NCBI GenBank assembly: GCA_027596195.1
Contig: JADGJG010000677.1
Coordinates: 1 to 14,326, forward strand
Direction of reading: 5' to 3'
Origin: Podochytrium sp. JEL0797
Taxonomy: Eukaryota; Chytridiomycota; Chytridiomycetes; Chytridiales; Chytriomycetaceae
DNA: 14,326 nucleotides
This document shows positions 1-14,326 of this stretch, one piece after another; position 1 is the stretch's first letter, and the number at the start of each line of letters is the position of its first letter. The notes beneath the pieces were generated by a model. It saw nothing but the letters and a program-made list of their open reading frames with translations. It had not been told where the DNA came from and searched no databases. The position numbers were made by a program, and so were the translations under genes.

Positions 1-7
1 GCAGAGC

Positions 8-105
8 CGGTTCGAAACCGCCGTATTACAAATACGTATTCGAACATTGCCGAATTGTCAACACGGAATCCTGACAAGGGGGCCCAACCCAAAGCGACTG
101 CAGTC
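8..105. repeat. Cluster of small palindromes and a 9-bp direct repeat
   Basis: Read directly: CGGTT-CGA-AACCG at 8-20, the palindrome AATACGTATT at 31-40, the palindrome GACTGCAGTC at 96-105, and a 9-bp direct repeat AGCGACTGC at 93-101 and 107-115. Each is short enough to occur by chance. The density before the TATA box is what stands out. No function is assigned. Confidence 0.5.
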
Positions 106-253: not shown

Positions 254-387
254 GTAGTACCCCTCCTCTTGTTCTGAATGTGGAATGCAAAAGCCCGTAT
301 TTAACAACTGACAATTTGAGCTGACGTGACGTGTTCTGTTTCAGTTTTATTTCTAAGAACCCAGGCGACCGCCAACCTGCCTCCTCC

Positions 388-3300
388 ATGCAAATGGACA
401 ACCATGCCGAGGAGACCTCCGAGGTGCTTCGGCTCCGTGCCGAGTTGGAGACCGCGCTTCAAGCGAATAACGCCTACAAGGTCGCGGCCGACGCTGCTGC
501 GGCTGCTGACGCCGCTGCCCGCGCTGAAGAGGAACGACGCGCCATCGCCGAAGCTGAACGTTGCACCGATGTGGAGACCCGCGCTATTGCGCTGGAGGAG
601 GCGTACTCCGTGCGCGATAGAATCCCACAGATGGAGGATGAGTTTGTCGAACGCGCCTCTGTTGGCCCGTCCCCCGACCACTTCCCAGTCACTCAGCGCA
701 TGTGGGACCGAGTCGAAGCCGAGCGCAGACAGGGGAAGACTAGGCGTGAGTCCCCCACTTCTTTGGCGCTTAGACGCTTGGCGAGCAATCGCTCACAGCT
801 TAGCTGTGTTTTCCGACCATTTGGGCTTACTATCCTCCCTCCCACAGGAGACGAGAGGAAAGACTACTTCCGCGAAGCAGGCCAACGGCAACATGCTGCT
901 AACATGGGTATCTACATGGACCACGCGCGCGACTTCAGCCAAGAAGAGTGCATCCGCCTCGCCGCGGGGACTGCTGTGTTCACGCAGGCCACCCAGCAGG
1001 CCAAGGACGCGCATCGTAACGCGAAGCAGGCGAAGCGCCGCAGAAGTAAGGGCTTGTTGAAATATCCACGGGCCGCCGTCTCATGTATTTATTCGCACAA
1101 AAAGATGGCGACGACAGCAGATCCGTCTCTTCTTCCCAAGGAGGGCGTTACAGCCGCGGAAACCGTTTGGACTGAAGTGCTCCCTCTTGTTAGTGACCTC
1201 AGAAGAGGATTTGAAATAAAAACTTTGATTCTTGAGATCTCGCCTTGCAATAATGGCACCTTTTCACGTCCGATCCATAGTTTGTGTTGGTGGCTGAGCA
1301 ACAGTCTGCAAGCCGTTGTCACCTTTACGATTTTGCCAAGGCTTGGCATTTTTACAATCTTGCCAAGGAAAGGCTTGAATATGACCCTTCTTTTGTTGGT
1401 TCTGTCAAAGAAAGTTGGCGCTCAAGAAGTCATCCCAAATCCGGAATTCCCTCTCTTAAGGAAGCAACATGTCGATGAACGATTCTTCCATGTGAGTACT
1501 GCTCCCTCTTTCGGGTTCACGGTGCTATTGGGGTTTTTGGTGTTATCAGTCCCACTCATTGTTGTATACTCACTTCGCCACAAACCATCCAGTGTATCCA
1601 TCATCCCCAGGAGGGTCACTTTCCGAGCCTTGGGCAGAGAGTTCTACGTGGAACGCGCCACGGGACAGGCCTTCAAGGGTGTCGGTACCAGACTCAACAA
1701 CCACGAGAAGGCGGCCCTCTACTCGGTCATGCGCCACTCGGTCCAGAAGTTCAGAGACCTGCCCGACACCTTCAACGAAACCAACTTCGGCTTGATGGCT
1801 GCGGCCATTGCTCTCATTGAGGGTGAAACGGAGGCTACCTTCGAAGCTTCCCTCACTGGAATCTCCCGTCTCACGCACCCTCAAGGTTTTATGACCATGG
1901 ACGCTGCCCACAGGGCCCTCGAGGTCGGTGAACATGAAGCTCACGATGCCCGTGACGCTCGCGACGTTCTGTCCCAGTTGTCAAACACGTCCGCCCATGC
2001 GAGTGACTCCCCCTTGGACGAGGAGAACGGAAACGCCACGCCAAGCGCCGAGGACAAGGGACCTGCCCCCCAGTCCTCGTACAAGACCCCAGCGGCTCGT
2101 TCCGCGACCTCTCCTTCGCCACAACCCATGTTGTCTGCCCCGGCGCATGCCACCCCTGTGTTCACACCTGCGACCCTGAGCGCAATGGCCAGTATTCTCA
2201 AGATCTCCTTGAGCGAGGCTTCGCGCGACCAGGAGCTCCTACGCCAACTCCGCGACATGACTGGAGATCGCCTCGGCAACTGCGAGCTCAGCTCGCGTAA
2301 CGCACTTGTCTACAAGCAGACCTCTGATGCGCTCTACGTGGAATTCGTTGGTCCTGGCAAGATCCTGTCCCAGCAGGACAAGGATCAGCTAACTCGCCAC
2401 ATTGTGGACAAGACCAAGTACGTGGGTCCCGAGGCTGAACGCTTCAGGAGACATGTCAACCAGAACTGTACGCGCTCGAGTTTCGACTCCAAGTTTGACT
2501 CCATCTTTTTGGACGAGAAGGCCCAGTACAACTTCCAGAGCCGTGTCCGTAACTTTGCATGGACGTCGACTGATGCGATGGCGGAAGCCGATGAGTTGGA
2601 ATTGCTGAATGACCAGCTCGGAGTGAACCGACTCGACCCTCCCTCGCTGGCCCGCTCCTTCACGGAAGGCTTCAAGCTTGACCACTCGCGTGAGCACGAC
2701 AAGCTTGTAAATTCGGAGATTAAGTCCGCTGCCTTGGGAGGCCGCAAGGTTCGTTACGGCCACAAGGACCTCACTGTCATGGACTACGCTGCCCACCTGA
2801 AGAGACAAGGTTTCGTCAAGGACAAGGTCCCCGATCCTTCCTCGGTTATCACGGCGAGGCTCAAGGCTCTCGAGTCGGCAGTGACCTCCTTGACTCCCCC
2901 ACGCGGCACCGGAGCCGTCACTCGCCCCTTTGCGGGCCTGCCAAGAAAGCTTGCCGGTACTCCTCCTCCCCCCAAGTTGGAGACCCACGTCTCCACCACC
3001 GAGGAACAGTCGGCACTCGATGACGACGCCGCTGTCCTCATGGAGGAGGAAGCTCTTCTCGAATCGGTCTACGAAACCTTCGCAATGCACGTCGAAGACG
3101 AGGACAAGCGTGCTGAGTTCAGAGAGAAACTCTTCCGTTGCTTCAACTGCGGTGAGACGGGTCACTTCCAACGGGACTGTCCTCAACCCCGCAGAGGTGA
3201 GAAAACGGAGAACGTTGTTGATGTAACTGAAATTCCTCCCATTCAGAGCGCCGCCGCCCTGCCGACACTCGCTGATCATCCGAGTTCATCAGAAGAGACT

Positions 3301-6300
3301 GCCTCGAAAGAGGAGGTTGAGGAGTGCCCTTTGGAAGTTACTTCTTTGAATAAAAAATCTTTTGACCCGACGCTTGAGGCCGCGAAAAACTGGGATGAAC
3401 CAATCATTAACCCTGAAATGAATGCTACCCAACTAGAGGTCGCGCCCCATTCGCAGGTTCCAGATGAGAGTCACATTCCCGACACTATTTGTCACGACGC
3501 CACTGCGACAACTGATGAAGAGGCCCCATATTGGGACTGTGTAAAACCGGACTCACTCGCGTGCCAGGCGCAACTCGCTGAAGAATATCGAAATCAGTGG
3601 ACGGCCATTCCCCTCGGAAAAACAACCATCTCGAGAGAAATTGGTCACTCAGACGAAATGATCTCTTGTTTGAAAAAATCTAACACCGCATCTGAAAAAC
3701 GAGTCAAATTCGACGAATCTGTTGAAGGCGCATTCACAGACTGGTCCTTTGCGACTACCGGTTTGTGCACGGTACCGAGCGAGTGGGGCTGGGCAGAACC
3801 TCGCCGAAAACTCCAGAATAAAGGGTATCACAGGTCCCACGGGGTTGTTCATTGCCCTGGATGGATTGGTTCTACCTTTGCGACGGACATGCTCCTAGAC
3901 AGTTGTTCCAACGGTGCCGTTATGAGTCACGACTTTTATAGGAGCCAGCCAAACCGACCCCCACTAATTCCGGTGAAAAAACCGACACTCAACCACGGCA
4001 TTGCGGGTGCAACATCCGTGTTGGGTTTCGCGTATTTCCCCACATGCATTGGAAACTCTCCGGTTTTGCGCCAATCGGTCCGTTTCGCAATTCTCGAAAG
4101 ATGTGCGCGACCAGTTATCTTGGGAACACCCCAGTTGGAACAATTTCAGGTTGACCTACTGTTCACAATCGACGAAGTCTTTTGGGGGCCAAATCTGAAA
4201 GCTCACGCGGACCAACTGAGTCCCGAGCTCAAAGTTGCTATTTGCGGCTCGAAAACCCCACGGTTGAGCATGCCGCTCCGATATTACACGGAGTACATTC
4301 CCGATGATGTGGGAAAAGCGAATACGCGGATGCATATGCGACTGGAAGAAGACTTGGTTATGACACGAAACCACAAATACCGGGTCAACATCAGGTTGCC
4401 CCACTCGTTTGATCGCGAGCCTCTGTGTTTGGCGAAAACCTGCCTCGCCATTGGCCTTCCCGAATTGGCAGATAAAAGCGTTTTCATCACAAAAACGATT
4501 TATAACTCCTCTGACATTCTCAAAGGAAGCGTACCAATCGAAGTTTGTTATGTCGGAATGAAACCCTTGCGATTGCCTGCTTTCTCTGTCGTTGCGACAC
4601 TCGAAGGGAACGGTCAGTATGACGTCAACGTTCTCAATGTTCCAGAAGAAATGAATGGATCTCAAACTGACTTGGCCGCCATGGTGACGGCAGCGACATA
4701 TTTCCAACCACGTGATAATGACTCATTCCTCGATTGCCTTACTAATGGAAGGCCCGAAGATGAACACCTCCCTTCGGCGGAAGAGTGTGAATTTGAAGAC
4801 GAAACGGTACTCAGTACAATGGTGGCGGAATCTACGCCAGAAGATGAACTCCCACTGGCGTTTGAAGAGGACGAATTGGACAAAATCTTCAAGACGCTGC
4901 CCACGGTAAGAGAAATCTATGCCGGCCGAAACACACTCGGACAAAACGTACAGCGGAAGATTCTTCGCTCGCGACCTAGAATCCGAAAACTCCTCACTTT
5001 TCTGGACGAAAGCGATAACGAAGACACGCGTAATCTGTTGATGAACTCAACACCAGCGCGCGACACCTCAAAAGAGGAGAAGCGAGACTATATCCCTGAG
5101 CCCGAGGCTAAAGACGACCAAGAATTCATTGGAAAATTTGACCTTGAACACATGGACAACCTCCCCAACACCTCCATAAAGGAAAAACTTGTTGACATGC
5201 TGCTCGAGTTCCGTGGTGTATTCACCACGCAAATGAAAACAGGATCTCAAACGCTGCCGGCGCATGAGATTGACACCAAACCAGGTGCCCGTGTCCCACA
5301 CTCGCCACCGTACCCGGAAGGGCCGGGGCGAACAACGGTCTTGCGTGAGCATATTCAGAAGATGCTCGATGATGATGTCATTAGACCCTCGAAATCCCAA
5401 TACGCGGCACCAGTCGTTTTGGCGAAGAAACCAGATGGCAGTTGGCGTTTTTGCGTCGATTATCGCAAACTGAACGAAATCACCGTTCCCGACCGGTACC
5501 CTTTACCCAATATTGAGGACATGTTTACGACGATTGGAAATCGATACTACTTCAGTAGTGTGGACCTCCAATCCGGTTTCTGGCAAATCAAGTTGGACGA
5601 AGCCAGCAAAGCCAAAACGGCATTCATCTCTTCCCAAGGACTCTTTGAGTTCAATGTTCTCCCATTTGGACTCACAAACGCACCACCGACGTTCCAACGC
5701 CTCATGGACGTCGTCCTTGCCGGTTATAAGTACGTATTCGCACTCGTTTACATCGATGACGTCGTGATTTATAGCGACAACGAGGATGAGCACCTCGGTC
5801 ACATTCGTCACATTTTGCAAAGAATGTACAATTACAACTTGAAAATAAAACCATCTAAGTGTCACTTCTTCTACACTGTCTTACCCTTTTTGGGGCATGT
5901 CATCTCAAAGGAAGGCCTACGAGTCGATCCGCACAAAATCGCGACCCTTGAAAATTGGCCTGTTCCGAAAACGGTGAAACAACTTCAACAGTTCCTGGGT
6001 TTCGCGAACTACTTTAAGCGATTTGTGAAAAGTTTTGCACAAACGGCAACCCCTTTATACCACCTTCTGAAAGAAACAACACCATGGAAATGGACACCCG
6101 AATGCGAGGACGCGTTCAGAAAATTGATTTCCAAACTACAGAAGGACATTGTACTCCACAACCCAACGGAGACAGATGAATTCATCATCGAATGCGACGC
6201 CTCAGGCAACGCATTGGGTGCGGCGCTGTATGCAAAGGGCGACACCAATGCGCGAACAGCCCGGAAACCCATCGCATTCATTTCGAGAACCCTCACACCC

Positions 6301-9048
6301 GTGGAGCAACGATATTCGAACACAGATCGAGAGGGACTCGCTTGTGTGTGGGCAGTAAACTGTTTTGACAAATGGATTTGGAATCGCCCAGTCACCATTG
6401 AAACTGATCACTCAGCATTAGTACCGCTCTTCCACAAGGGTGACTTGACTGGACGATTCGCAAGATGGGCTTATGCCCTGTCAGATTATGACATCACGCT
6501 GGTGCATGTGCCAGGGAAAACACAAGTTGTCGCCGATGCGCTATCAAGAGTGAATATCCACAACACCATGTTCTCCTTCCGGAGGAAGGACATTCTTAAA
6601 AAAGGACCCTATAGTCACGAGGGTGACCAAGAGGTTGAAGAAACTCCTGAAACGTTCGTAAGTGAAGTCTCAACGGGACTACCCCCTTTAAAAAATCTAT
6701 TCCAAACGTACGTGCTTGGTCTCCCAAACAACAAGGACGAGCCCGCCCCTCAGAACGAAGCTGATCACGCCAAGCGCGAATTTGTTAGATTATACACGTT
6801 GATGGCGAAAACGGACGCGGACGAGACTCACAAACTTGTAAGTGACTTATCCAAGCGGATCCTGAAATACCGGAAAAAGGAAGAAATCAAGTCCATCGAG
6901 GACCTCCGGAAAGAAGTCAAACGAACCCCCGCGTTCAAGGCGGGACAGAGCAGTCTCAATATCATGACTTGGAACATCAACGGATTCCGGCACGTATTCA
7001 AGAAACATGTTAAGGAACATGACCTCTCCAAGGAGAAGATGGAAATACAGTTGGACCACTTCTTCAATTCGACGAATTGCGGAGTTATCTGCCTCCAAGA
7101 GACTCGTATGGGAACAAACGCCAAGGGCAAGAACATTTTCGAGGCCATGCGAAACCTTCAACAATGGAACTGTTACTTTAATGACAAAAACATCGGTTAC
7201 GCTGGCGTTGCCGTTATTATCCGAAAGGAGTTGGCACAGAAAGTCGATGAGGTCATCATTTTGCCCGAGATGGGAGATTGGACAGATGACGAGGGTCGCG
7301 TCATCACCATTTTGGTTGGCGAAATCGCAATCGTCACCGCATACATTCCCAGTGGAATGCGAAAGGACGATAGACAAGAGTTTAAACTACGGTTCTTCGA
7401 AGAATTTAAGGCTCATTGCGACAAGCTCCGGGACACTCACCTTGTTATAGTGGCAGGCGACTTCAACGTCGCACCCTCACCCAGAGATGTTCTGGAATTC
7501 GTGGAGAAAGAACCCGGACTGAAGGACCGGTTCCGGTCAACAATTACAAAAGAGGAGCAAGAGTGGTTCAACTCCATGTCGGACAACTTTCATGACGGAT
7601 TCCGCATCAAACATCCCCATGATATGGGCGCCACATGGACCCTTAAAACCGTCGACGGAAAGGAGTACCCTTTCTGGCGTATTGACCATTTCCTGATTGA
7701 CAAGCGCGTCTCCACTGACTGCTTCGATATCCGCGTTAACACGCGAAACACAATGAGTGACCACCTGCAACTGCGCGCTGACTTGAAGCTGGACCATTTC
7801 GCTGTCCCCCTGGTCAACCAGTCCACATGGATCCCCACCGAAGGAGTCCAAGAAAGCGAACACGCGACGTATGCGATGGAATGTTACCTCGGTCTCACAT
7901 CGCTCCCACTGTTCGGACTTGACCCCGAGAAAATGCGGGAATTGCAGCTCAAAGATTCCTACTTTGGAAGCGTTATCCGTTTCTTGGAAGATGGCGCAAT
8001 CCCGGACGAAAAAGACGCCGAGGAAATGAGGACTCTCTCGAGACACTTTGTGCTCGACGACGCGGGGCTTCTTTATCTGGTTTCCGATATTACGTCAAAA
8101 TCCGTTCGACGCCAACCTGGTCGTATCGCATTATGTGCACCCGACTCGCTGCGGCGAGAAATTCTGGAGCGTCACCACGACGACATTTACAGCGGCCACC
8201 TGGGAGTTTCGAAGGTCCTCCCAACTCTCATGGATAGATTCTGGTGGCCTAACATGGCTTCCCAAGTGAAGAACCATATTCAATCGTGTGTCGATTGTCA
8301 AAGGTCAAAGGATCATTCGGCGAAAACAGGTTTCGTACACCCCATTCCACTTGGCGAGTTCCCGATGGAACGAGTCTTTGTTGATTTCATGGGTCCCATG
8401 ACGGAAACCGAGGAGGGTAACAAATATGTGATGGTTCTGGTGGACAGTTTTACGAAATGGGCGGAGGCAATTCCGCTTTCCGACATATCCGGTCCCACCG
8501 TCGCAAAGGCACTCGTAAAAGACGTCTTCTCAAGGACCGGTGTCCCAGTATTCCTGCACTCGGATCAAGGCCCCCCATTTGACGACAACTTGATGAGGGA
8601 GCTCAGCAAGATGCTCGGGTTCAGCAAGACGTTTACCGCGCCATATTGGCCCCGCGCAAATGGGCCCGTTGAACGACTAATCAAAACTCTCTCACAAGAA
8701 TTACGAGCATATATCAATCAATATGATTACAACGACTGGGATGAGATTCTGCCTTTCATCCTTTTTGCGTACCGAACGCATGTTCACTCGTCAACAGGCG
8801 AAACCCCATTTTTTATGTACCATGGGCGCGACGCGCGTCTCCCCTCCGATTTGTTTTTCGGAATAAGTCCGGATGATCCCCTGTACCCGAAACCCACGCT
8901 TGATCCCAACGCTGGTGAGGAGATCCCAACGCTGGTGAGGAGGGCGAAGATGAACTTGAGGTGTTCCTCGCCGAGAGCGGCCGCAGCGCCCGCACCACCA
9001 GGAGCTTCAGATTCCCGAATCTCGCAATCGCGGAGTTTAGCAGTTTAA
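388..9048 (+). CDS. Ty3/gypsy-type Gag-Pol polyprotein with embedded EEP nuclease, integrase tail frameshifted
   Basis: A single open frame of about 2886 residues from the first ATG (388); the frame is open from 325, but 331 is GTG, an unlikely eukaryotic start. Order, residues counted from 388: Ala-rich coiled coil (1-220); Gag (about 410-900); CCHC knuckle (918-931); aspartic protease (Asp 1171); RT (Asp 1726, YIDD 1788-1791); RNase H (D1937, E1982, D2007, D2050); EEP nuclease (about 2190-2465); integrase HHCC and DD35E (D2666, D2726, E2762). Gag and Pol share one frame, with no stop or frameshift between them. A 20-bp duplication at 8902-8941 throws the end out of frame, so the last roughly 35 residues are missense before the TAA at 9046-9048. 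The 5' part may be spliced (746-847, 1492-1610), so the true Gag start could be 1469. It produces the structural protein and enzymes for replicating an LTR retrotransposon. Family assignment is firm; start and splicing are not. Confidence 0.85.
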   Translation: MQMDNHAEETSEVLRLRAELETALQANNAYKVAADAAAAADAAARAEEERRAIAEAERCTDVETRAIALEEAYSVRDRIPQMEDEFVERASVGPSPDHFPVTQRMWDRVEAERRQGKTRRESPTSLALRRLASNRSQLSCVFRPFGLTILPPTGDERKDYFREAGQRQHAANMGIYMDHARDFSQEECIRLAAGTAVFTQATQQAKDAHRNAKQAKRRRSKGLLKYPRAAVSCIYSHKKMATTADPSLLPKEGVTAAETVWTEVLPLVSDLRRGFEIKTLILEISPCNNGTFSRPIHSLCWWLSNSLQAVVTFTILPRLGIFTILPRKGLNMTLLLLVLSKKVGAQEVIPNPEFPLLRKQHVDERFFHVSTAPSFGFTVLLGFLVLSVPLIVVYSLRHKPSSVSIIPRRVTFRALGREFYVERATGQAFKGVGTRLNNHEKAALYSVMRHSVQKFRDLPDTFNETNFGLMAAAIALIEGETEATFEASLTGISRLTHPQGFMTMDAAHRALEVGEHEAHDARDARDVLSQLSNTSAHASDSPLDEENGNATPSAEDKGPAPQSSYKTPAARSATSPSPQPMLSAPAHATPVFTPATLSAMASILKISLSEASRDQELLRQLRDMTGDRLGNCELSSRNALVYKQTSDALYVEFVGPGKILSQQDKDQLTRHIVDKTKYVGPEAERFRRHVNQNCTRSSFDSKFDSIFLDEKAQYNFQSRVRNFAWTSTDAMAEADELELLNDQLGVNRLDPPSLARSFTEGFKLDHSREHDKLVNSEIKSAALGGRKVRYGHKDLTVMDYAAHLKRQGFVKDKVPDPSSVITARLKALESAVTSLTPPRGTGAVTRPFAGLPRKLAGTPPPPKLETHVSTTEEQSALDDDAAVLMEEEALLESVYETFAMHVEDEDKRAEFREKLFRCFNCGETGHFQRDCPQPRRGEKTENVVDVTEIPPIQSAAALPTLADHPSSSEETASKEEVEECPLEVTSLNKKSFDPTLEAAKNWDEPIINPEMNATQLEVAPHSQVPDESHIPDTICHDATATTDEEAPYWDCVKPDSLACQAQLAEEYRNQWTAIPLGKTTISREIGHSDEMISCLKKSNTASEKRVKFDESVEGAFTDWSFATTGLCTVPSEWGWAEPRRKLQNKGYHRSHGVVHCPGWIGSTFATDMLLDSCSNGAVMSHDFYRSQPNRPPLIPVKKPTLNHGIAGATSVLGFAYFPTCIGNSPVLRQSVRFAILERCARPVILGTPQLEQFQVDLLFTIDEVFWGPNLKAHADQLSPELKVAICGSKTPRLSMPLRYYTEYIPDDVGKANTRMHMRLEEDLVMTRNHKYRVNIRLPHSFDREPLCLAKTCLAIGLPELADKSVFITKTIYNSSDILKGSVPIEVCYVGMKPLRLPAFSVVATLEGNGQYDVNVLNVPEEMNGSQTDLAAMVTAATYFQPRDNDSFLDCLTNGRPEDEHLPSAEECEFEDETVLSTMVAESTPEDELPLAFEEDELDKIFKTLPTVREIYAGRNTLGQNVQRKILRSRPRIRKLLTFLDESDNEDTRNLLMNSTPARDTSKEEKRDYIPEPEAKDDQEFIGKFDLEHMDNLPNTSIKEKLVDMLLEFRGVFTTQMKTGSQTLPAHEIDTKPGARVPHSPPYPEGPGRTTVLREHIQKMLDDDVIRPSKSQYAAPVVLAKKPDGSWRFCVDYRKLNEITVPDRYPLPNIEDMFTTIGNRYYFSSVDLQSGFWQIKLDEASKAKTAFISSQGLFEFNVLPFGLTNAPPTFQRLMDVVLAGYKYVFALVYIDDVVIYSDNEDEHLGHIRHILQRMYNYNLKIKPSKCHFFYTVLPFLGHVISKEGLRVDPHKIATLENWPVPKTVKQLQQFLGFANYFKRFVKSFAQTATPLYHLLKETTPWKWTPECEDAFRKLISKLQKDIVLHNPTETDEFIIECDASGNALGAALYAKGDTNARTARKPIAFISRTLTPVEQRYSNTDREGLACVWAVNCFDKWIWNRPVTIETDHSALVPLFHKGDLTGRFARWAYALSDYDITLVHVPGKTQVVADALSRVNIHNTMFSFRRKDILKKGPYSHEGDQEVEETPETFVSEVSTGLPPLKNLFQTYVLGLPNNKDEPAPQNEADHAKREFVRLYTLMAKTDADETHKLVSDLSKRILKYRKKEEIKSIEDLRKEVKRTPAFKAGQSSLNIMTWNINGFRHVFKKHVKEHDLSKEKMEIQLDHFFNSTNCGVICLQETRMGTNAKGKNIFEAMRNLQQWNCYFNDKNIGYAGVAVIIRKELAQKVDEVIILPEMGDWTDDEGRVITILVGEIAIVTAYIPSGMRKDDRQEFKLRFFEEFKAHCDKLRDTHLVIVAGDFNVAPSPRDVLEFVEKEPGLKDRFRSTITKEEQEWFNSMSDNFHDGFRIKHPHDMGATWTLKTVDGKEYPFWRIDHFLIDKRVSTDCFDIRVNTRNTMSDHLQLRADLKLDHFAVPLVNQSTWIPTEGVQESEHATYAMECYLGLTSLPLFGLDPEKMRELQLKDSYFGSVIRFLEDGAIPDEKDAEEMRTLSRHFVLDDAGLLYLVSDITSKSVRRQPGRIALCAPDSLRREILERHHDDIYSGHLGVSKVLPTLMDRFWWPNMASQVKNHIQSCVDCQRSKDHSAKTGFVHPIPLGEFPMERVFVDFMGPMTETEEGNKYVMVLVDSFTKWAEAIPLSDISGPTVAKALVKDVFSRTGVPVFLHSDQGPPFDDNLMRELSKMLGFSKTFTAPYWPRANGPVERLIKTLSQELRAYINQYDYNDWDEILPFILFAYRTHVHSSTGETPFFMYHGRDARLPSDLFFGISPDDPLYPKPTLDPNAGEEIPTLVRRAKMNLRCSSPRAAAAPAPPGASDSRISQSRSLAV
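746..847 (+). other. Probable spliceosomal intron (102 bp)
   Basis: Begins GTGAGT, contains a branch-like CTTAC near 826-830, then a pyrimidine-rich tract ending CCCACAG at 847. Length is 102 bp with no stop, so the frame stays open whether or not it is spliced. Removal joins the first base of an Arg codon (C745) to GA (848-849), giving Arg then an acidic/basic stretch that matches the hydrophilic flanks better than the intron's own translation. It also carries copy B of the paired-hairpin motif. Confidence 0.6.
780..808. repeat. Paired-hairpin motif, copy B (inside putative intron)
   Basis: GCGA-GCAA-TCGC (781-792) followed by the inverted repeat CACAGCT-T-AGCTGTG (794-808). It matches copy A (138-165) except for one loop base and one extra base in the second hairpin. 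Both changes leave the stems intact, and both first loops fit GNRA. Confidence 0.6.
1046..1468 (+). other. Open but unrecognised leader-like stretch before Gag
   Basis: The frame is open throughout, but the translation resembles no domain I know. It starts with donor-like GTAAGG (1046), and TGTTG at about 1056 resembles an LTR 5' end. An ATG at 1105 has a strong context (AAAGATGGC), is in frame with Gag and is an alternative start. The stretch also contains an imperfect direct repeat (1321-1378). It may be LTR/leader DNA, an intron with its flanks, or a fast-evolving N-terminus. No stop in 141 codons argues mildly for past or present coding. Confidence 0.35.
1321..1378. repeat. Imperfect tandem repeat with palindrome
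   Basis: Two imperfect units of about 27-30 bp share a core TTGCCAAGG followed by CTTG or AAAGGCTTG. The first unit contains the inverted repeat TGCCAA-GGC-TTGGCA (1334-1348). If translated it gives two similar short peptides (TILPRLGIF and TILPRKGLN). No function is assigned. Confidence 0.5.
1492..1610 (+). other. Probable spliceosomal intron (119 bp) at the Gag start
   Basis: GTGAGT at 1492-1497, branch-like CTCAC near 1569-1573, acceptor CCCCAG ending at 1610. Splicing would join a short exon beginning at ATG 1469 (context GCAACATGTCG, A at -3) in phase 2 to the Gag frame at 1611, giving Met-Ser-Met-Asn-Asp-Ser-Ser-Met-Arg-Val-Thr. The ATG exon uses a different frame upstream (1469 is 2 mod 3) and only matches Gag after removal of 119 bp, which supports real splicing. 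The intron's unspliced translation is a hydrophobic, membrane-like run, as T-rich introns often give, and out of place in a Gag. Confidence 0.55.
1611..3220 (+). other. gag: Gag (capsid/nucleocapsid) region
   Basis: Begins with a basic, folded-looking segment (Arg-Val-Thr-Phe-Arg...), then a Ser/Pro/Ala/acidic linker (about 1930-2170), then a helical, charged capsid-like region (about 2170-2850), a Pro-rich/acidic spacer, and the CCHC knuckle at its end. Gag assembles the virus-like particle and packages element RNA; this role is assigned from position and the knuckle, since Gag sequence is poorly conserved. Hand-read codons here favour G/C in third position (about 60-85% in three sampled 20-codon stretches), against about 50% in sampled protease to RNase H stretches. 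Confidence 0.65.
3139..3180 (+). other. CCHC zinc knuckle of nucleocapsid
   Basis: C-X2-C-X4-H-X4-C (CFNCGETGHFQRDC), the retroviral-type knuckle that binds genomic RNA. All four zinc ligands are present. It sits at the Gag/Pol border, as in many Ty3/gypsy elements. A donor-like GGTGAG follows at about 3195, but nothing shows it is used. Confidence 0.95.
3868..4149 (+). other. Retropepsin-like aspartic protease with atypical active site
   Basis: Located between the knuckle and RT. The candidate active site is a hydrophobic run followed by Leu-Leu-Asp-Ser-Cys-Ser-Asn-Gly (Asp codon 3898). A hydrophobic Val-Ile-Leu-Gly motif follows near 4120, where family members have ILG-(M/T)-(D/P). The position and the second motif fit a protease that cuts the polyprotein. 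The usual Asp-Ser/Thr-Gly is Asp-Ser-Cys, a change at a nearly invariant Gly. It may be a divergent but working lineage variant or a damaged protease. Confidence 0.7.
5263..5970 (+). other. Reverse transcriptase domain
   Basis: Copies element RNA into cDNA. Conserved blocks are present in order: the entry segment with His-Glu-Ile-Asp; AAPVVLAKKPDGSWRFCVDY; DRYPLP; SSVDLQSGFWQ with catalytic Asp at 5563; LPFGLTNAPPTFQRLM; YIDD at 5749-5760 supplying the other two metal-binding Asp; FLGHVIS; and the LGFANYFKRF connection. All catalytic Asp are intact. Asn-Ala-Pro-Pro-Thr-Phe replaces the usual NAPATF, a mild variant. This is unmistakably of Ty3/gypsy type rather than copia, BEL or LINE. Confidence 0.97.
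6163..6560 (+). other. RNase H domain
   Basis: Degrades the RNA strand of the RNA/DNA hybrid. The four acidic catalytic positions are visible: Asp at 6196 in ECDASGNALGAAL, Glu at 6331 in TDREGLA, Asp at 6406 in ETDHSAL and Asp at 6535 in VADALSR. It follows RT directly, as in Ty3/gypsy elements. A hydrophilic linker (about 6560-6950) separates it from the EEP domain, and the tandem repeat begins inside that linker at 6732. Confidence 0.95.
6955..7785 (+). other. Exonuclease III / AP-endonuclease-like EEP domain, unit 1
   Basis: Members cut DNA at abasic sites or act as 3'-5' exonucleases; LINE relatives nick target DNA. The signature residues run in order: Asn 6973 in TWNINGF; Glu 7099 in CLQETRMG; YAGVAV (about 7198); AYIPSG; Asp 7459 and Asn 7465 in AGDFNVAP; Asp 7684 in FWRIDHFL; Asp-His 7759-7764 in SDHLQL. 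The wording is closer to bacterial ExoIII/APE1 repair enzymes than to LINE endonucleases. It is fused in frame between RNase H and integrase, an unusual place for such a domain. The catalytic set is complete, so activity is plausible. Its role (target nicking, repair of integration gaps, cDNA processing) is unknown. Confidence 0.93.
8120..8800 (+). other. Integrase: HHCC zinc-binding and DD35E core, unit 1
   Basis: Inserts element cDNA into the genome. The HHCC module has His at 8173/8176 and 8197, and Cys at 8287 and 8296 (CVDC). The catalytic core has Asp 8383 (VDFMGP), Asp 8563 (HSDQG) and Glu 8671 (GPVER); spacing is 59 residues then 35, the classic DD35E. The core is intact, but the C-terminal part is cut off in this frame by the 20-bp duplication at 8902. 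As encoded here, the integrase lacks its GPY/F and chromodomain-like regions. Confidence 0.96.
8902..8941 (+). repeat. 20-bp tandem duplication causing a frameshift
   Basis: The unit GATCCCAACGCTGGTGAGGA occurs twice back to back (8902-8921, 8922-8941). Unit 2 of the large repeat has it once (12703-12722, with one substitution). Twenty bases is not a multiple of three, so the frame moves from that of the polyprotein to the one in which the downstream homology to unit 2 continues. Confidence 0.95.
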
Positions 9049-10577
9049 GGCAATTTCAGGACAAGTGTTGCAAAAAGATGCATGGTTTCCACAAGGATGA
9101 GCAGCTGTTCGAAACTCTTCGGGATGTTTTCGAACACCTCGACCTCGACATGTTGTGTTTGTCTTATAACCCAAGGCGGCAGCGAAGCTCTGCAAGCGAT
9201 TTCCCCGGATATTTCTATCTCAGGGACGGAAGTATTGTTTCAATGAGGGACCACGTGTACCGACTCAATCCTGAATCTGACACGCCTGTCGTGTGTACGC
9301 CCCGACAAAAGGCCCAGCGGATTTCTGTCGTTTACGCGCGAGAAGGTGTCCTCAACATCGGACCCCCTCCCTTGTCTCTCGACGATGTCCAAAGCGCGGT
9401 CAAGCACCCATTCCTCTGCACAGGTACTGTGAACCAAGTTGTGTGTGTTCACCGATGCTTCCGACCCGACGGGTCGTATCTCGATAAGCAGCAAATACTT
9501 TTTGATCCCCTCAAAAGGCTCTCGGCAGTGTTTTCAAACACACCGATGTGGGAGAACTCGGGCAAGTTTGTGTGGGTGAAAAGTCCACTGTTGTCAATCA
9601 AAACCGACACCCACCGCGGTTCATACGTCTTTGTGAATGAAACGTCAAACGAGATGGAGTTCGAAACATATTACGTGGAACCCCCCCCACCCAACCGGGC
9701 AGCTTTAGAATGTTATATTCTTGAGGAGGATGCACACACCCGTGCACCTACGCCTGACGAGTCTCGCGTTGCGACCTTGAGGAGTATTCTTCTTGGCTTG
9801 CAGGCAAGCCAAGATGTTATCAAAGCGAAGGTTGCTCAGAATCAGGAGAAACAGCGTTTGCGGTCGAAAGAAGACGATCATGCACCACATGAATTCGGCA
9901 TTGGAGATCGAGCTTGGCTCTCGGTACCACTACAAGGCGAATCTCAGCGCTTGGGTGTTACCAAGAAGCTGATTTTTCGGTGGGTAGGACCCGTTCGCGT
10001 CATCTCTCGATCCGGCGGGACTAGCAAGACCCATTACACTGTTGTTGAAACCTTCCCAGGTGGTGAAATCACCTGTCGAAAGGTGCACGTCAGTAGACTC
10101 CGACCTTTCGTGGCAAGAGTACCGGTAGACTCAGCTGAAGTCGCCGCCGCCTTGGCAGGTGACGACTTCGAAGCCGAACTCAAGAAGTTTGAGAAGGCGT
10201 TGTTACTCAAACAACGGCCACGACACTCGCACCAGAGTAAGCTCGCCGGGACCAATCTTTGGATGGCCCGGAAATTCGACCCTGATTTCGAAGAACGAGA
10301 CCTTCATGACCCACGAATAGTCATCAAGGAGGTGCTTGAGGTCGCTTACGACAGCGACAGAGCGGGCTCGTTTGTATACCGTGTCGTAGCAATGGATCAG
10401 GCCCGCCGCCACGCTTGGTGGCAGAAACACGCTGACATGCCCGACGCGGTCCTTGACGAGTTCTGGAAACTCATGTGCCAGAAGAAAAGTGTTTGGTGGA
10501 AGCGTTATTCCACCTGGTGCAAGAACCAAAGGAAAATTGTTGACCAAGGACGAGCCCGCCCCTCAGAACGAAGCTGA
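8942..10577 (+). pseudogene. Frameshifted C-terminal part of polyprotein, unit 1 (insert, GPY/F, chromodomain-like)
   Basis: Downstream of the 20-bp duplication the original protein continues in a different frame with no stop until TGA 10575-10577, where it has already run 32 bp into unit 2 out of frame. There is no ATG in this frame until 9078, so it would need ribosomal frameshifting or its own start. It contains an unrecognised insert (about 8942-9760), a basic helical segment, the GPY/F-like module (about 9969-10115) and a chromodomain-like tail (about 10308-10484). Because no other lesion is visible, the frameshift looks recent. Confidence 0.8.
9792..9813. repeat. Inverted repeat with 10-bp arms
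   Basis: Perfect arms CTTGGCTTGC and GCAAGCCAAG are separated by AG. It lies within coding sequence. The matching place in unit 2 (about 13573-13594) has two substitutions that break the pairing, so the structure is not conserved and is probably incidental. Confidence 0.5.
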
Positions 10578-10614
10578 TCACGCCAAGCGCGAATTTGTTA
10601 GATTATACACGTTG

Positions 10615-13600
10615 ATGGCGAAAACAGACGAGACTCACAAACTTGTAAGTGACTTATCCAAGCGGATCCTGAAATACCGGAAAAAGGAAGAAATCAAGTC
10701 CATCAAGGACCTCCGGAAAGAAGTCAAACGAACCCCCGCGTTCAAGGCGGGACAGAGCAGTCTCAATATCATGACTTGGAACATCAACGGATTCCGGCAC
10801 GTATTCAAGAAACATGTTAAGGAACATGACCTCTCCAAGGAGAAGATGGAAATACAGTTGGACCACTTCTTCAATTCGACGAATTGCGGAGTTATCTGCC
10901 TCCAAGAGACTCGTATGGGAACAAACGCCAAGAGCAAGAACATTTTCGAGGCCATGCGAAACCTTCAACAATGGAACTGTTACTTTAATGACAAAAACAT
11001 CGGTTACGCTGGCGTTGCCGTTATTATCCGAAAGGAGTTGGCACAGAAAGTCGATGAGGTCATCATTTTGCCCGAGATGGGAGATGGAGACGAGGGTCGC
11101 GTCATCACCATTTTGGTGGGTGAAATCGCAATCGTCACCGCATACATTCCCAGTGGAATGCGAAAGGACGATAGACAAGAGTTTAAACTACGGTTCTTGG
11201 AAGAATTTAAGGCACACTGCGACAAGCTCCGGGACACTCACCTTGTTATAGTGGCAGGCGACTTCAACGTCGCACCCTCACCCAGAGATGTTCTGGAATT
11301 CGTGGAGAAAGAACCCGGACTGAAGGACCGGTTCCGGTCAACAATTACAAAAGAGGAGCAAGAGTGGTTCAACTCCATGTCGGACAACTTTCACGACGGA
11401 TTCCGCATCAAACATCCCCTCGACATGGGCGCCACATGGACCCTTAAAACCGTCGATGGAAAAGAATATCCTTTCTGGCGCATCGACCATTTCCTGATTG
11501 ACAAGCGCGTCTCCACTGACTGCTTCGATATCCGCGTTAACACGCGAAACACAATGAGTGACCACCTGCAACTGCGCGCTGACTTGAAGCTGGACCATTT
11601 CGCTGTCCCCCTGGTCAACCAGTCCACATGGATCCCCACCGAAGGAGTCCAAGAAAGCGAACACGCGACGTATGCGATGGAATGTTACCTCGGTCTCACA
11701 TCGCTCCCACTGTTCGGGCTCGACCCCGAGAAAATGCGAGAGCTACAACTCAAAGATTCCTACTTTGGAGGCGTTATCCGTTTCTTGGAAGATGGCGCAA
11801 TCCCGGACGAAAAAGACGCCGAGGAAATGAGGACTCTCTCGAGACACTTTGTGCTCGACGACGCGGGGCTTCTTTATCTGGTTTCCGATATTACGTCAAA
11901 ATCCGTTCGACGCCAACCTGGTCGTATCGCATTATGTGCACCCGACTCGCTGCGGCGAGAAATTCTGGAGCGTCACCACGACGACATTTACAGCGGCCAC
12001 CTGGGAGTTTCGAAGGTCCTCCCAACTCTCATGGATAGATTCTGGTGGCCTAACATGGCTTCCCAAGTGAAGAACCATATTCAATCGTGTGTCGATTGTC
12101 AAAGGTCAAAGGATCATTCGGCGAAAACAGGTTTCGTACACCCCATTCCACTTGGCGAGTTCCCGATGGAACGAGTCTTTGTTGATTTCATGGGTCCTAT
12201 GACGGAAACCGAGGAGGGTAAGAAATATGTGATGGTTCTGGTGGACAGTTTTACGAAATGGGCGGAGGCAATTCCGCTTCCCGACACATCCGGTCCCACC
12301 GTCGCAAAGGCACTCGTAAAAGACGTCTTCTCGAGGACCGGTGTCCCAGTATTCCTGCACTCGGATCAAGGCCCCCCATTTGACGACAAGTTGATGAGGG
12401 AGCTCAGCAAGATGCTCGGGTTCAGCAAAACGTTTACCGCGCCATATTGGCCCCGCGCAAATGGGCCCGTTGAACGACTAATCAAAACTCTCTCACAAGA
12501 ATTACGAGCATATATCAATCAATATGATTACAACGACTGGGATGAGATTCTGCCTTTCATCCTTTTTGCGTACCGAACGCATGTTCACTCGTCAACAGGC
12601 GAAACCCCATTTTTTATGTACCATGGGCGCGACGCGCGTCTCCCCTCCGATTTGTTTTTCGGAATAAGTCCGGATGATCCCCTGTACCCGAAACCCACGC
12701 TTGATCCCGACGCTGGTGAGGAGGGCGAAGATGAACTTGAGGTGTTCCTCGCCGAGAGCGGCCGCAGCGCCCGCACCACCAGGAGCTTCAGATTCCCGAA
12801 TCTCGCAATCGCGGAGTTTAGCAGTTTAAGGCAATTCCAGGATAAGTGTTGCAAAAAGATACACGGGTTCCACAAGGATGAACAGTTGTTCGAAACCCTC
12901 CGAGATGTTTTCGAACATTTCGACCTCGACATATTGTGTTTGTCCTATGATCCAAGGAGGAAGCGAAGCTCTGCAAATGATTTCCCCGGATATTTCTACC
13001 TCCGGGACGGGTGTATTGTTTCTATGAAGGACCACGCGTACCGGCTCAATCCTGAATCTGACACGCCTGTCGTGTGTACGCCCCGACAAAAGGCCCAGCG
13101 GATTTCTGTCGTTTACGCGCGAGAAGGTGTCCTCAACATCGGACCCCCTCCCTTGTCTCTCGACGATGTCCAAAGCGCGGTCAAGCACCCATTCCTTTGC
13201 ACAGGTACTGTGAACCAAGTTGTGTGTGTCCACCGTTGTTTCCAACCCGACGGATCATACGTTGATAAGCAACAAATACTCTTTGACCCCCTCAAGAAGC
13301 CTTCAGCAGTGTTTTCAAACGCGCCGATGTGGGATAACTCTGGCAAGTTTGTGTGGGTGAAAAGTCCACTGTTGTCAATCAAAACCGACACCCACCGCGG
13401 TTCATATGTCTTTGTGAATGAAACTTCAAACGAGATAGAGTTTGAGACATATTATGTTGAACCCCCCCCACCCAACCGGGCAGCTTTAGAATGTTATATT
13501 CTTGAGGAGGATGCACACACCAGTGTACCCACGCCCGACGAATCCCGTGTTGCGACACTGAGGGGCATCCTCCTTGGCTTGCAGACGAGCCAAGATATCA

Positions 13601-14326
13601 TCAAAGCGAAGGTTGCTCAGAATCAGGAGAAACAGCGTTTGCGGTCGAAAGAAGACGATCATGCACCACATGAGTTCGGCATTGGAGATCGAGCTTGGCT
13701 CTCGGTACCACTACAAGGCGAATCTCAGCGCTTGGGTGTTACCAAGAAGCTGATTTTTCGGTGGGTAGGACCCGTTCGCGTCATCTCTCGATCCGGCGGG
13801 ACTAGCAAGACCCATTATACTGTTGTCGAAACCTTCCCAGGTGGTGAAATCACCTGTCGAAAGGTGCACGTCAGTAGACTCCGACCTTTCGTGGCAAGGG
13901 TACCGGTAGACAAAGCTGAAGTCGCCGCCGCCTTGGCAGGTGACGACTTCGAGGCCGAACTCAAGAAGTTTGAGAAGGCGTTGTTACTCAAACAACGGCC
14001 ACGACACTCGCACCAGAGTAAGCTCGCCGGGACCAATCTTTGGATGGCCCGGAAATTCGACCCTGATTTCGAAGAACGAGACCTTCATGACCCTCGAATA
14101 GTCATCAAGGAGGTGCTTGAGGTCGCTTACGACAGCGACAGAGCGGGTTCGTTCGTATACCGTGTCGTAGCAATGGATCAGGCCCGCCGCCACGCTTGGT
14201 GGCAGAAACACGCTGACATGCCCGACGCGGTCCTCGACGAGTTCTGGAAACTCATGTGCCAGAAGAAAAGTGTTTGGTGGAAGCGTTATTCCACCTGGTG
14301 CAAGAACCAAAGGAAAATTGTTGACC
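10615..14326 (+). CDS. Partial Pol polyprotein: EEP nuclease + integrase + insert + GPY/F + chromodomain-like, 3' end open
   Basis: The frame is open from 10390 (after TAG 10387-10389) to the window edge with no stop; I read every codon. The first ATG is 10615, giving at least 1237 residues. Domains: linker (10615-10760), EEP (10762-11586), integrase HHCC and core (about 11920-12600), unknown insert (12723 to about 13555), basic segment with GPY/F-like module (13750-13896), chromodomain-like tail (about 14089-14265). It lacks gag, protease, RT and RNase H. The incoming unit 1 frame does not match it, so translation would need an independent start. Against unit 1, EEP-integrase changes are mostly synonymous (roughly 20 or more versus about 10 amino-acid changes by eye), consistent with past selection on the protein. 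The natural C-terminus is not seen. Confidence 0.85.
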   Translation, partial: MAKTDETHKLVSDLSKRILKYRKKEEIKSIKDLRKEVKRTPAFKAGQSSLNIMTWNINGFRHVFKKHVKEHDLSKEKMEIQLDHFFNSTNCGVICLQETRMGTNAKSKNIFEAMRNLQQWNCYFNDKNIGYAGVAVIIRKELAQKVDEVIILPEMGDGDEGRVITILVGEIAIVTAYIPSGMRKDDRQEFKLRFLEEFKAHCDKLRDTHLVIVAGDFNVAPSPRDVLEFVEKEPGLKDRFRSTITKEEQEWFNSMSDNFHDGFRIKHPLDMGATWTLKTVDGKEYPFWRIDHFLIDKRVSTDCFDIRVNTRNTMSDHLQLRADLKLDHFAVPLVNQSTWIPTEGVQESEHATYAMECYLGLTSLPLFGLDPEKMRELQLKDSYFGGVIRFLEDGAIPDEKDAEEMRTLSRHFVLDDAGLLYLVSDITSKSVRRQPGRIALCAPDSLRREILERHHDDIYSGHLGVSKVLPTLMDRFWWPNMASQVKNHIQSCVDCQRSKDHSAKTGFVHPIPLGEFPMERVFVDFMGPMTETEEGKKYVMVLVDSFTKWAEAIPLPDTSGPTVAKALVKDVFSRTGVPVFLHSDQGPPFDDKLMRELSKMLGFSKTFTAPYWPRANGPVERLIKTLSQELRAYINQYDYNDWDEILPFILFAYRTHVHSSTGETPFFMYHGRDARLPSDLFFGISPDDPLYPKPTLDPDAGEEGEDELEVFLAESGRSARTTRSFRFPNLAIAEFSSLRQFQDKCCKKIHGFHKDEQLFETLRDVFEHFDLDILCLSYDPRRKRSSANDFPGYFYLRDGCIVSMKDHAYRLNPESDTPVVCTPRQKAQRISVVYAREGVLNIGPPPLSLDDVQSAVKHPFLCTGTVNQVVCVHRCFQPDGSYVDKQQILFDPLKKPSAVFSNAPMWDNSGKFVWVKSPLLSIKTDTHRGSYVFVNETSNEIEFETYYVEPPPPNRAALECYILEEDAHTSVPTPDESRVATLRGILLGLQTSQDIIKAKVAQNQEKQRLRSKEDDHAPHEFGIGDRAWLSVPLQGESQRLGVTKKLIFRWVGPVRVISRSGGTSKTHYTVVETFPGGEITCRKVHVSRLRPFVARVPVDKAEVAAALAGDDFEAELKKFEKALLLKQRPRHSHQSKLAGTNLWMARKFDPDFEERDLHDPRIVIKEVLEVAYDSDRAGSFVYRVVAMDQARRHAWWQKHADMPDAVLDEFWKLMCQKKSVWWKRYSTWCKNQRKIVD
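10762..11586 (+). other. EEP (ExoIII/APE-like) domain, unit 2
   Basis: Same signature set as unit 1: Asn 10780, Glu 10906, Asp 11260 (GDFN), Asp 11485 (WRID), Asp-His 11560-11565 (SDH). Differences from unit 1 avoid all catalytic positions; they include a 2-residue deletion after the MGD motif, Gly to Ser near 10933, Phe to Leu near 11203 and His to Leu near 11419. Conservation of the active site in two diverged copies argues that the domain is a standing part of the element, not a one-off capture. Confidence 0.92.
11920..12600 (+). other. Integrase HHCC and DD35E core, unit 2
   Basis: HHCC: His 11974/11977 and 11998, Cys 12088 and 12097. Core: Asp 12184, Asp 12364, Glu 12472, spaced 59 and 35 residues apart. 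All catalytic residues are present, and here the core stays in frame with its C-terminal modules. The few changes from unit 1 (for example Asn to Lys twice, Ser to Pro, Ile to Thr) lie outside the motifs. Confidence 0.95.
12723..13555 (+). other. Unrecognised insert between integrase core and GPY/F module
   Basis: In typical Ty3/gypsy integrases the segment after the core (here ending ETPFFMYHGRDARLPSD) leads within some tens of residues to a basic helix and the KVGD-W-L/GPY-F module. Here roughly 250 extra residues intervene: an acidic start, a Cys- and His-containing segment, a mixed strand-like part with several Cys, and a short Pro run before the basic helix resumes near 13545. I recognise no family. 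It is present in both units and shows mostly synonymous difference, so it is probably translated in intact copies. Confidence 0.6.
13681..13896 (+). other. GPY/F-like integrase C-terminal module, unit 2
   Basis: The sequence reads IGDRAWL, then about 20 residues on FRWVGPVRVISRSG, and ends HVSRLRPF. This is the pattern of the GPY/F module of Ty3/gypsy and gammaretroviral integrases (GD-W/V-L, then W-GP-(F/Y)-V, ending HVSRLRPY/F), which helps the enzyme multimerise and bind DNA. Gly-Pro-Val replaces Gly-Pro-Tyr/Phe. The same module lies in the displaced frame of unit 1 at about 9900-10115. Confidence 0.8.
14089..14265 (+). other. Chromodomain-like C-terminal region, unit 2
   Basis: After the GPY/F module and a linker comes Ile-Val-Ile-Lys-Glu-Val-Leu-Glu-Val-Ala, then a Tyr-Arg-Val-Val strand, a Trp-Trp and Asp-Ala-Val-Leu-Asp-Glu-Phe helix. 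This order resembles a chromodomain (EVEKIL...YLVKW...W...ALDEF), which in chromoviruses steers integration to marked chromatin. The aromatic cage is not clearly conserved, so this is a tentative call from order and position. The equivalent in unit 1 is at about 10308-10484. Confidence 0.45.

Follow-up and report, generated by a model that had tools for sequence, protein, structure and literature searches.

The stretch analysed here (the window) is the 14,326-nucleotide contig JADGJG010000677.1 of the chytrid Podochytrium sp. JEL0797, numbered C642 among the 995 contigs of a 24.4-Mb genome assembly. An RNA polymerase II exon of this genome (C39) scores highest with 3h0g (388 bits), followed by two entries at 366 and 361 bits, 9mu7 at 351 and a further group at 331-332; the top three are from fission and budding yeasts and the last group is from mammals. 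These scores make a fungal host likely, where the first-pass annotation had proposed searches of algal and protist genomes. The window carries, on the forward strand like all of its features described below, a retroelement whose first copy is read as a single Gag-Pol open frame of 2905 amino acids (331..9048; open reading frame list and Pfam). The Pfam domains of this frame stand in the order zf-CCHC, RVT_1, RT_RNaseH, Exo_endo_phos, Integrase_H2C2 and rve, that is, the pol order reverse transcriptase (RT)-RNase H-integrase of Ty3/gypsy elements with an endonuclease/exonuclease/phosphatase (EEP) domain inserted between RNase H and integrase. The RT (5266..6042; RVT_1 E 1.1e-36) contains a YIDD motif and is 40% identical to the RT of an element on contig C381, which we read as RT-RNase H-integrase with a C-terminal chromodomain-like stretch. 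It is followed by RNase H (6043..6552; RT_RNaseH E 1.4e-27). The integrase (8107..8862) has an H2C2 zinc domain (Integrase_H2C2 E 1.2e-20) and an rve core (E 1.7e-11) with D1, D2 and E motifs, and is of the DD35E type, 35 residues separating the second D from the E by motif reading. The RVT_1 and RT_RNaseH matches, the domain order and the likeness to the C381 RT fit a Ty3/gypsy-type long terminal repeat (LTR) retrotransposon. A first-pass annotation of the window had read RT, RNase H, a full EEP motif set and a DD35E integrase in one frame, and both the Pfam order and the motifs agree with it.

The inserted segment (6949..7785) is assigned by its sequence to the ExoIII/APE1 (xth) family, as a nuclease domain inside Gag-Pol between RNase H and the DD35E integrase. 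PF03372 (Exo_endo_phos) matches amino acids 2212-2478 of the 2905-residue frame (E 5.4e-14). The NCBIfam xth model TIGR00633 matches window positions 6955-7776, in accord with the 6955-7785 given at first pass, and scores 133.4 and 136.8 bits against a curated cut-off of 99.05, which places the domain in the xth family by score and rules out chance, as the earlier assignment to the ExoIII/APE type had proposed. Scores for the narrower model TIGR00195 (113 and 119.4 bits) fall below its cut-off of 182.55. The catalytic residues of xth enzymes are Asn, Glu, Tyr, Asp-x-Asn, Asp and Asp-His. Alignments and motif reading find the whole ExoIII/APE1 set in the EEP, which contains the motifs WNING, CLQET, AYIPSG, GDFNVA, WRIDH and SDH. 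The structure model predicted for the domain has the EEP fold, and the domain is 25-31% identical to the 36 cellular xth rows with which it was aligned. A loss of the residue equivalent to APE1 F266 was considered and dropped: one alignment places a Thr there, and the other pairs this Thr with a neighbouring conserved Thr, leaving a gap. In APE1, the F266A substitution increases exonuclease rates, according to the excerpt of the source (PMC5785985).

This EEP was found five times in a search of the genome, on three contigs. Two of the matches are in the window; C905 has one, at 93% identity, and C404 has two, at 42%. Those on C905 and C404 sit in long stop-free frames (3369 and 3521 codons, respectively, counted from the first listed ATG) with the same pol domain order as in the window, C404 being without a CCHC match. 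C642 and C905 (family A) and C404 (family B) represent two diverged element families; between the window and C404, identity is 44% for EEP, 61% for RT, 57% for RNase H and 68% for integrase. The linkers that flank the EEP are variable (6553..6948, between RNase H and EEP, and 7786..8106, between EEP and integrase; 27% and 33% identity to family B), and their lying below the EEP in identity is what a domain that folds on its own would lead one to expect. With the EEP on three contigs and in two families, in the same order and in long open frames, a chance origin was rejected, as was an assembly join, a possibility that the first-pass annotation had raised together with the absence of further copies.

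Selection was measured as the ratio of nonsynonymous to synonymous divergence (dN/dS, Nei-Gojobori) between the window and C905, the one informative pair. The ratio is 0.028 for EEP, 0.021 for RT, 0.030 for RNase H and 0.014 for integrase, the lowest among the domains compared, and 0.099 for the protease region, 0.38 for the Gag region, 0.148 for the RNase H-EEP linker and 0.083 for the EEP-integrase linker, all of them rough values because dS is about 1 for most domains. The check on the EEP suggested earlier supports purifying selection on the domain in this one pair of copies.

The remaining retroelements of the genome provide a context for the domain. Genome profile searches, which score the best candidates only, gave 11 RT matches, four in EEP-bearing elements and seven elsewhere; an EEP is absent from the four of these seven whose frames were read (C381, C529, C318 and C344). 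The Pfam EEP search gave 10 matches, five in these elements, two in an element on C119 of the type of long interspersed nuclear elements (LINEs), in which a YVDD lies downstream of the EEP by eye, and three in other proteins, on C55, C509 and C825. None fell on the seven other RT contigs among the best candidates scored, so the EEP marks one retroelement lineage in this genome. Eight matches were obtained with TIGR00633 (five in these elements, two in the LINE-type element and a weak one on C825); the xth cut-off is passed by these elements only, and the C119 EEP falls below it. Contigs C55 and C825 encode, on reading, different EEP proteins. TIGR00633 found no cellular xth/APE1 gene in the genome, a search limited by the draft state and by introns.

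The origin of the domain was approached with a hand-picked tree of 56 rows (five from this genome, 19 of the 42 proteins of the EEP-integrase search described below and 32 of 120 others listed), fungal APE sequences not being among them. The four retroelement EEPs group together (100/100) among the xth rows; the branch leading to them is long, their sister is unsure and long-branch warnings apply. When they were placed in one clade with other sequences, approximately unbiased (AU) tests disfavoured the eight APE1 rows (p-AU 0.026) and gave 0.359 for the five APE2 rows. As to the ExoIII/APE1-versus-LINE phylogeny proposed earlier, a clade with the LINE endonuclease is not rejected (p-AU 0.215); the LINE row has a branch of more than 5 changes per column. 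Capture of a host repair nuclease, the earlier suggestion for the source, found no backing, as the draft genome yielded no xth host gene and the APE1 clade is disfavoured in a tree without fungal APE rows. No donor is claimed on the basis of this tree.

Relatives elsewhere are few. The EEP region as a query had no relative at E <= 1e-3 among 2008 candidates of 0.55-1.75 times its length. No confirmed relative was obtained from a viral contig collection, queried with one protein and with an alignment, and none from a genome contig collection; these absences mean little because few eukaryotic genomes are included in either. An alignment search for EEP-integrase gave at least 42 proteins among the best 7999 candidates scored. 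Among the matches listed, P0121 (Thrips palmi LOC117651926) alone has both EEP and integrase by its listed Pfam domains: the tail of an RNase H region (by eye) precedes H2C2, rve and an xth EEP (581-820; 210.8 bits). A clade of the retroelement EEPs with this thrips EEP is not rejected (p-AU 0.255). P0059, a JGI metagenome fragment of 521 amino acids, has an xth EEP and then a weak Dam match (E 0.01), a stretch that we take to resemble DIRS elements; it groups with the retroelement EEPs at 96/71, flagged as a meeting of long branches. Both are known here from proteins alone, P0121 as a gene model. In P0128 (metagenome, 941 amino acids), an xth EEP shares its frame with an RT of the group II intron type and a maturase domain.

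Other features complete the element. The Gag region has a CCHC zinc knuckle (3136..3186; zf-CCHC E 2.2e-07), and its N-terminal part shows, by eye, hydrophobic, membrane-span-like stretches at about 1350-1600, which are also present in the N-terminal parts of the L006 and L008 frames, covering both families. The protease region (3823..4167) is placed by alignment with family B, to which it is 35% identical across 114 residues, and the Pfam scan of the window frame gave no protease match there. Its motif (3898-3909) is DSCS/DSCA in family A, including C905, versus the usual DTGA in family B. The long frame of the first copy stops at 9048, past the integrase, the C-terminal region being continued in a different frame (8961..10577); a Pfam scan of the window's C-terminal frames gave no match, a chromodomain included.

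At the 5' side, positions 1..76 are taken as the 3' end of the 5' LTR. Repeat copies at C679:27-102 and C138:3345-3420 match them and part from the window directly after CCTGACA, which would put the LTR end at 76; this end has solo copies elsewhere in the genome, and there are further partial matches on C686 and C140. A putative primer-binding site (77..90) is predicted from the motif GGGGGCCCAACC, which directly follows the LTR end in the window, C905 and C791 and lies within the leader of C404. A direct LTR repeat pair was sought within C905 and C404 and none was found, so full LTRs are unseen. C791 (L068, C791:1-10000) is a decayed relative with the common 5' LTR end and leader and RT-RNase H remnants, then unrelated frames; its match to the window frame stops 5' of the EEP.

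The unit 6732-10544 (EEP-integrase-C-terminus) is followed by a tandem second copy (10545..14326) that is 96.1% identical, possibly an assembly effect, and contains a second EEP (10756..11586; 98.6% amino acid identity to the first). About 4% separates the two units, which also show some in-frame indels, and the contig ends where the second one ends. Head-to-tail duplicates are seen on three retroelement contigs, C642, C404 (period 7427) and C119 (period 7258), and C404, like C642, ends at the end of the second unit. Such duplicates may be an assembly effect, two alleles or real tandems.

Enzymes of the xth family cleave DNA at abasic sites and take off 3' nucleotides that are blocked or mismatched. 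APE1 performs both abasic cutting and 3' nucleotide removal with one site, as stated in the excerpt of PMC5785985. We predict, with middling confidence and with a mechanism that is inferred, that the EEP acts on the element's own reverse transcript before integration. Because RT, integrase and EEP are parts of a common precursor, the EEP would be packaged alongside the other two. Plus-strand synthesis or end processing by integrase would stall on cDNA that is abasic or blocked, and such ends would be cleared by an abasic-site (AP) endonuclease, 3'-phosphodiesterase or exonuclease carried on board. The EEP would cut abasic sites and trim or unblock 3' ends, after which integrase would insert the cDNA. 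As the integrase is intact and strongly constrained, the EEP would be an addition to it. A role on cDNA is the most economical reading, and several points weigh against it. The dN/dS evidence depends on a single informative pair at dS of about 1, and between the window's two copies the ratio is 0.082 for EEP and 0.387 for integrase, on few changes. The EEP diverges faster between families (44% identity) than integrase (68%) or RT (61%). At the site of APE1 F266-W267 these elements have one aromatic fewer, where the alignments disagree and the effect on substrate is unreadable. Lastly, the AU test does not reject kinship with the LINE endonuclease (p-AU 0.215, with one very long LINE row).

The first-pass annotation had offered three functions: nicking of target DNA, processing of cDNA ends and repair of abasic cDNA. 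Target nicking, in which the EEP would make the first chromosomal cut in the manner of LINEs, as an alternative or helper entry beside integrase, now appears the least likely of these and is unlikely overall, because the DD35E integrase is complete and the domain, in contrast to the genome's LINE-type endonuclease, reaches an xth score. The EEP fold, the occurrence of a LINE-type element with EEP and downstream YVDD in the same genome and the unrejected clade with its EEP (p 0.215) speak for such nicking; the integrase has the lowest dN/dS against C905 (0.014), the xth cut-off is passed here and missed by the LINE-type EEP, and in the alignment the W of WRIDH is kept, unlike in the LINE row. 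Repair or end processing of cDNA would fit better.

RNA in hybrids is degraded by ExoIII-family enzymes. The EEP, which directly follows RNase H, might strip the tRNA primer or the polypurine tract from the hybrid, as a second RNase H-like enzyme or a 3' RNA phosphodiesterase, and extra RNase H domains beside the original one in Archon and Tat are a precedent (PMC5348765, in excerpt). Work on the RNA strand is nevertheless unlikely, since the element's own RNase H is intact and elsewhere in the genome there are EEP-free elements with RNase H and integrase. Also improbable is a role in counter-defence, by which the EEP would remove cDNA damage imposed by the host (for example, after deamination) or disturb host sensing instead of serving routine replication. 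Its predicted biochemistry equals that of cDNA repair, and capture of a DNA-modifying enzyme is described elsewhere, Dnmt3 in a Gypsy pol (PMC5890265, in excerpt), but the window and genome gave no pointer to a specific host defence, no search being aimed at one. That the domain is an xth gene of host or bacterial origin, picked up accidentally or through assembly and functionless for the element, is largely refuted and very improbable, for although the EEP-integrase elements lie on three contigs only, two of which end in tandem duplications, they form two families with 44% EEP identity and a common position and catalytic set, the EEP has a dN/dS of 0.028, and the frames of C905 and C404 are open over 3369 and 3521 codons.

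The element resembles Ty3/gypsy chromoviruses in its RT-RNase H-integrase order, its LTR end and, in family B, a C-terminal chromodomain-like match (Chromo 24.2 bits, just below the cut-off of 25.1); it differs in the EEP of about 280 amino acids and in the single Gag-Pol frame of 3369-3521 codons (C905, C404). With ExoIII/APE1 AP endonucleases the domain shares a score above the curated cut-off, the predicted fold and the catalytic residues, but here it is part of a retroelement polyprotein, with 25-31% identity to the cellular rows and one aromatic fewer at the F266-W267 site. The thrips protein likewise joins a retroelement-type integrase to an xth EEP, which lies 3' of the integrase and not before it; the integrases are 30% identical, and a gene model alone is known. 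In LINEs the EEP is N-terminal to RT, and LTRs and a DD35E integrase are lacking; a family with two endonucleases, named Dualen, has reportedly been described. APE-bearing and dual-endonuclease LINEs are similar in having an EEP nuclease within a retroelement, whereas the window EEP is C-terminal to RT and RNase H and accompanied by H2C2 and rve with D-D-35-E.

In non-primate lentiviruses a dUTPase occupies this place in pol, after RNase H and before integrase. As an accessory enzyme there that protects cDNA quality, it is the nearest analogue in logic, although it is a nucleotide pyrophosphatase and no nuclease. We tentatively raise the possibility, with less confidence than the role on cDNA itself, that integrase-bearing retroelements repeatedly took up a cellular-type base-excision-repair nuclease, forming an on-board module for cDNA repair and end cleaning, the nuclease counterpart of lentiviral dUTPase. 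Instances would be RNase H-EEP-integrase here, integrase-EEP in thrips and perhaps the metagenomic EEP beside a DIRS-like region.

Bdelloid Juno and Vesta are LTR elements with a captured nuclease as well, which according to the excerpt of PMC5408684 is a separate ORF3 of the DEDDy fold, its departure from neutrality not significant per the authors; dUTPase is a keyword of that paper. Tat and Archon gained an extra domain beside RNase H in Ty3/gypsy elements, the added domain being an RNase H (PMC5348765, in excerpt). In the portions of the sources consulted, the accessory domains of LTR elements comprise chromodomain, DnaQ-like or DEDDy exonuclease, added RNase H, helicase, GDSL esterase and Dnmt3 (PMC5348765, PMC3248453, PMC5890265, PMC9926174, PMC5408684, PMC6338049), and one source (PMC3248453) mentions fungal LTR elements of complex build, into which many domains are inserted. 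A literature search, mostly of titles and the beginnings of abstracts, found no description of an EEP in an LTR element. Repair of cDNA by LTR elements is generally assumed to be left to the host. With an element that brings along an AP-endonuclease-type enzyme, and two families that have kept it, the question of whether retrotransposon cDNA is limited by base damage or by blocked 3' ends becomes testable. The RNase H-EEP-integrase order also cuts across the usual division, in which LINEs have EEP nucleases and LTR elements have DDE integrases.

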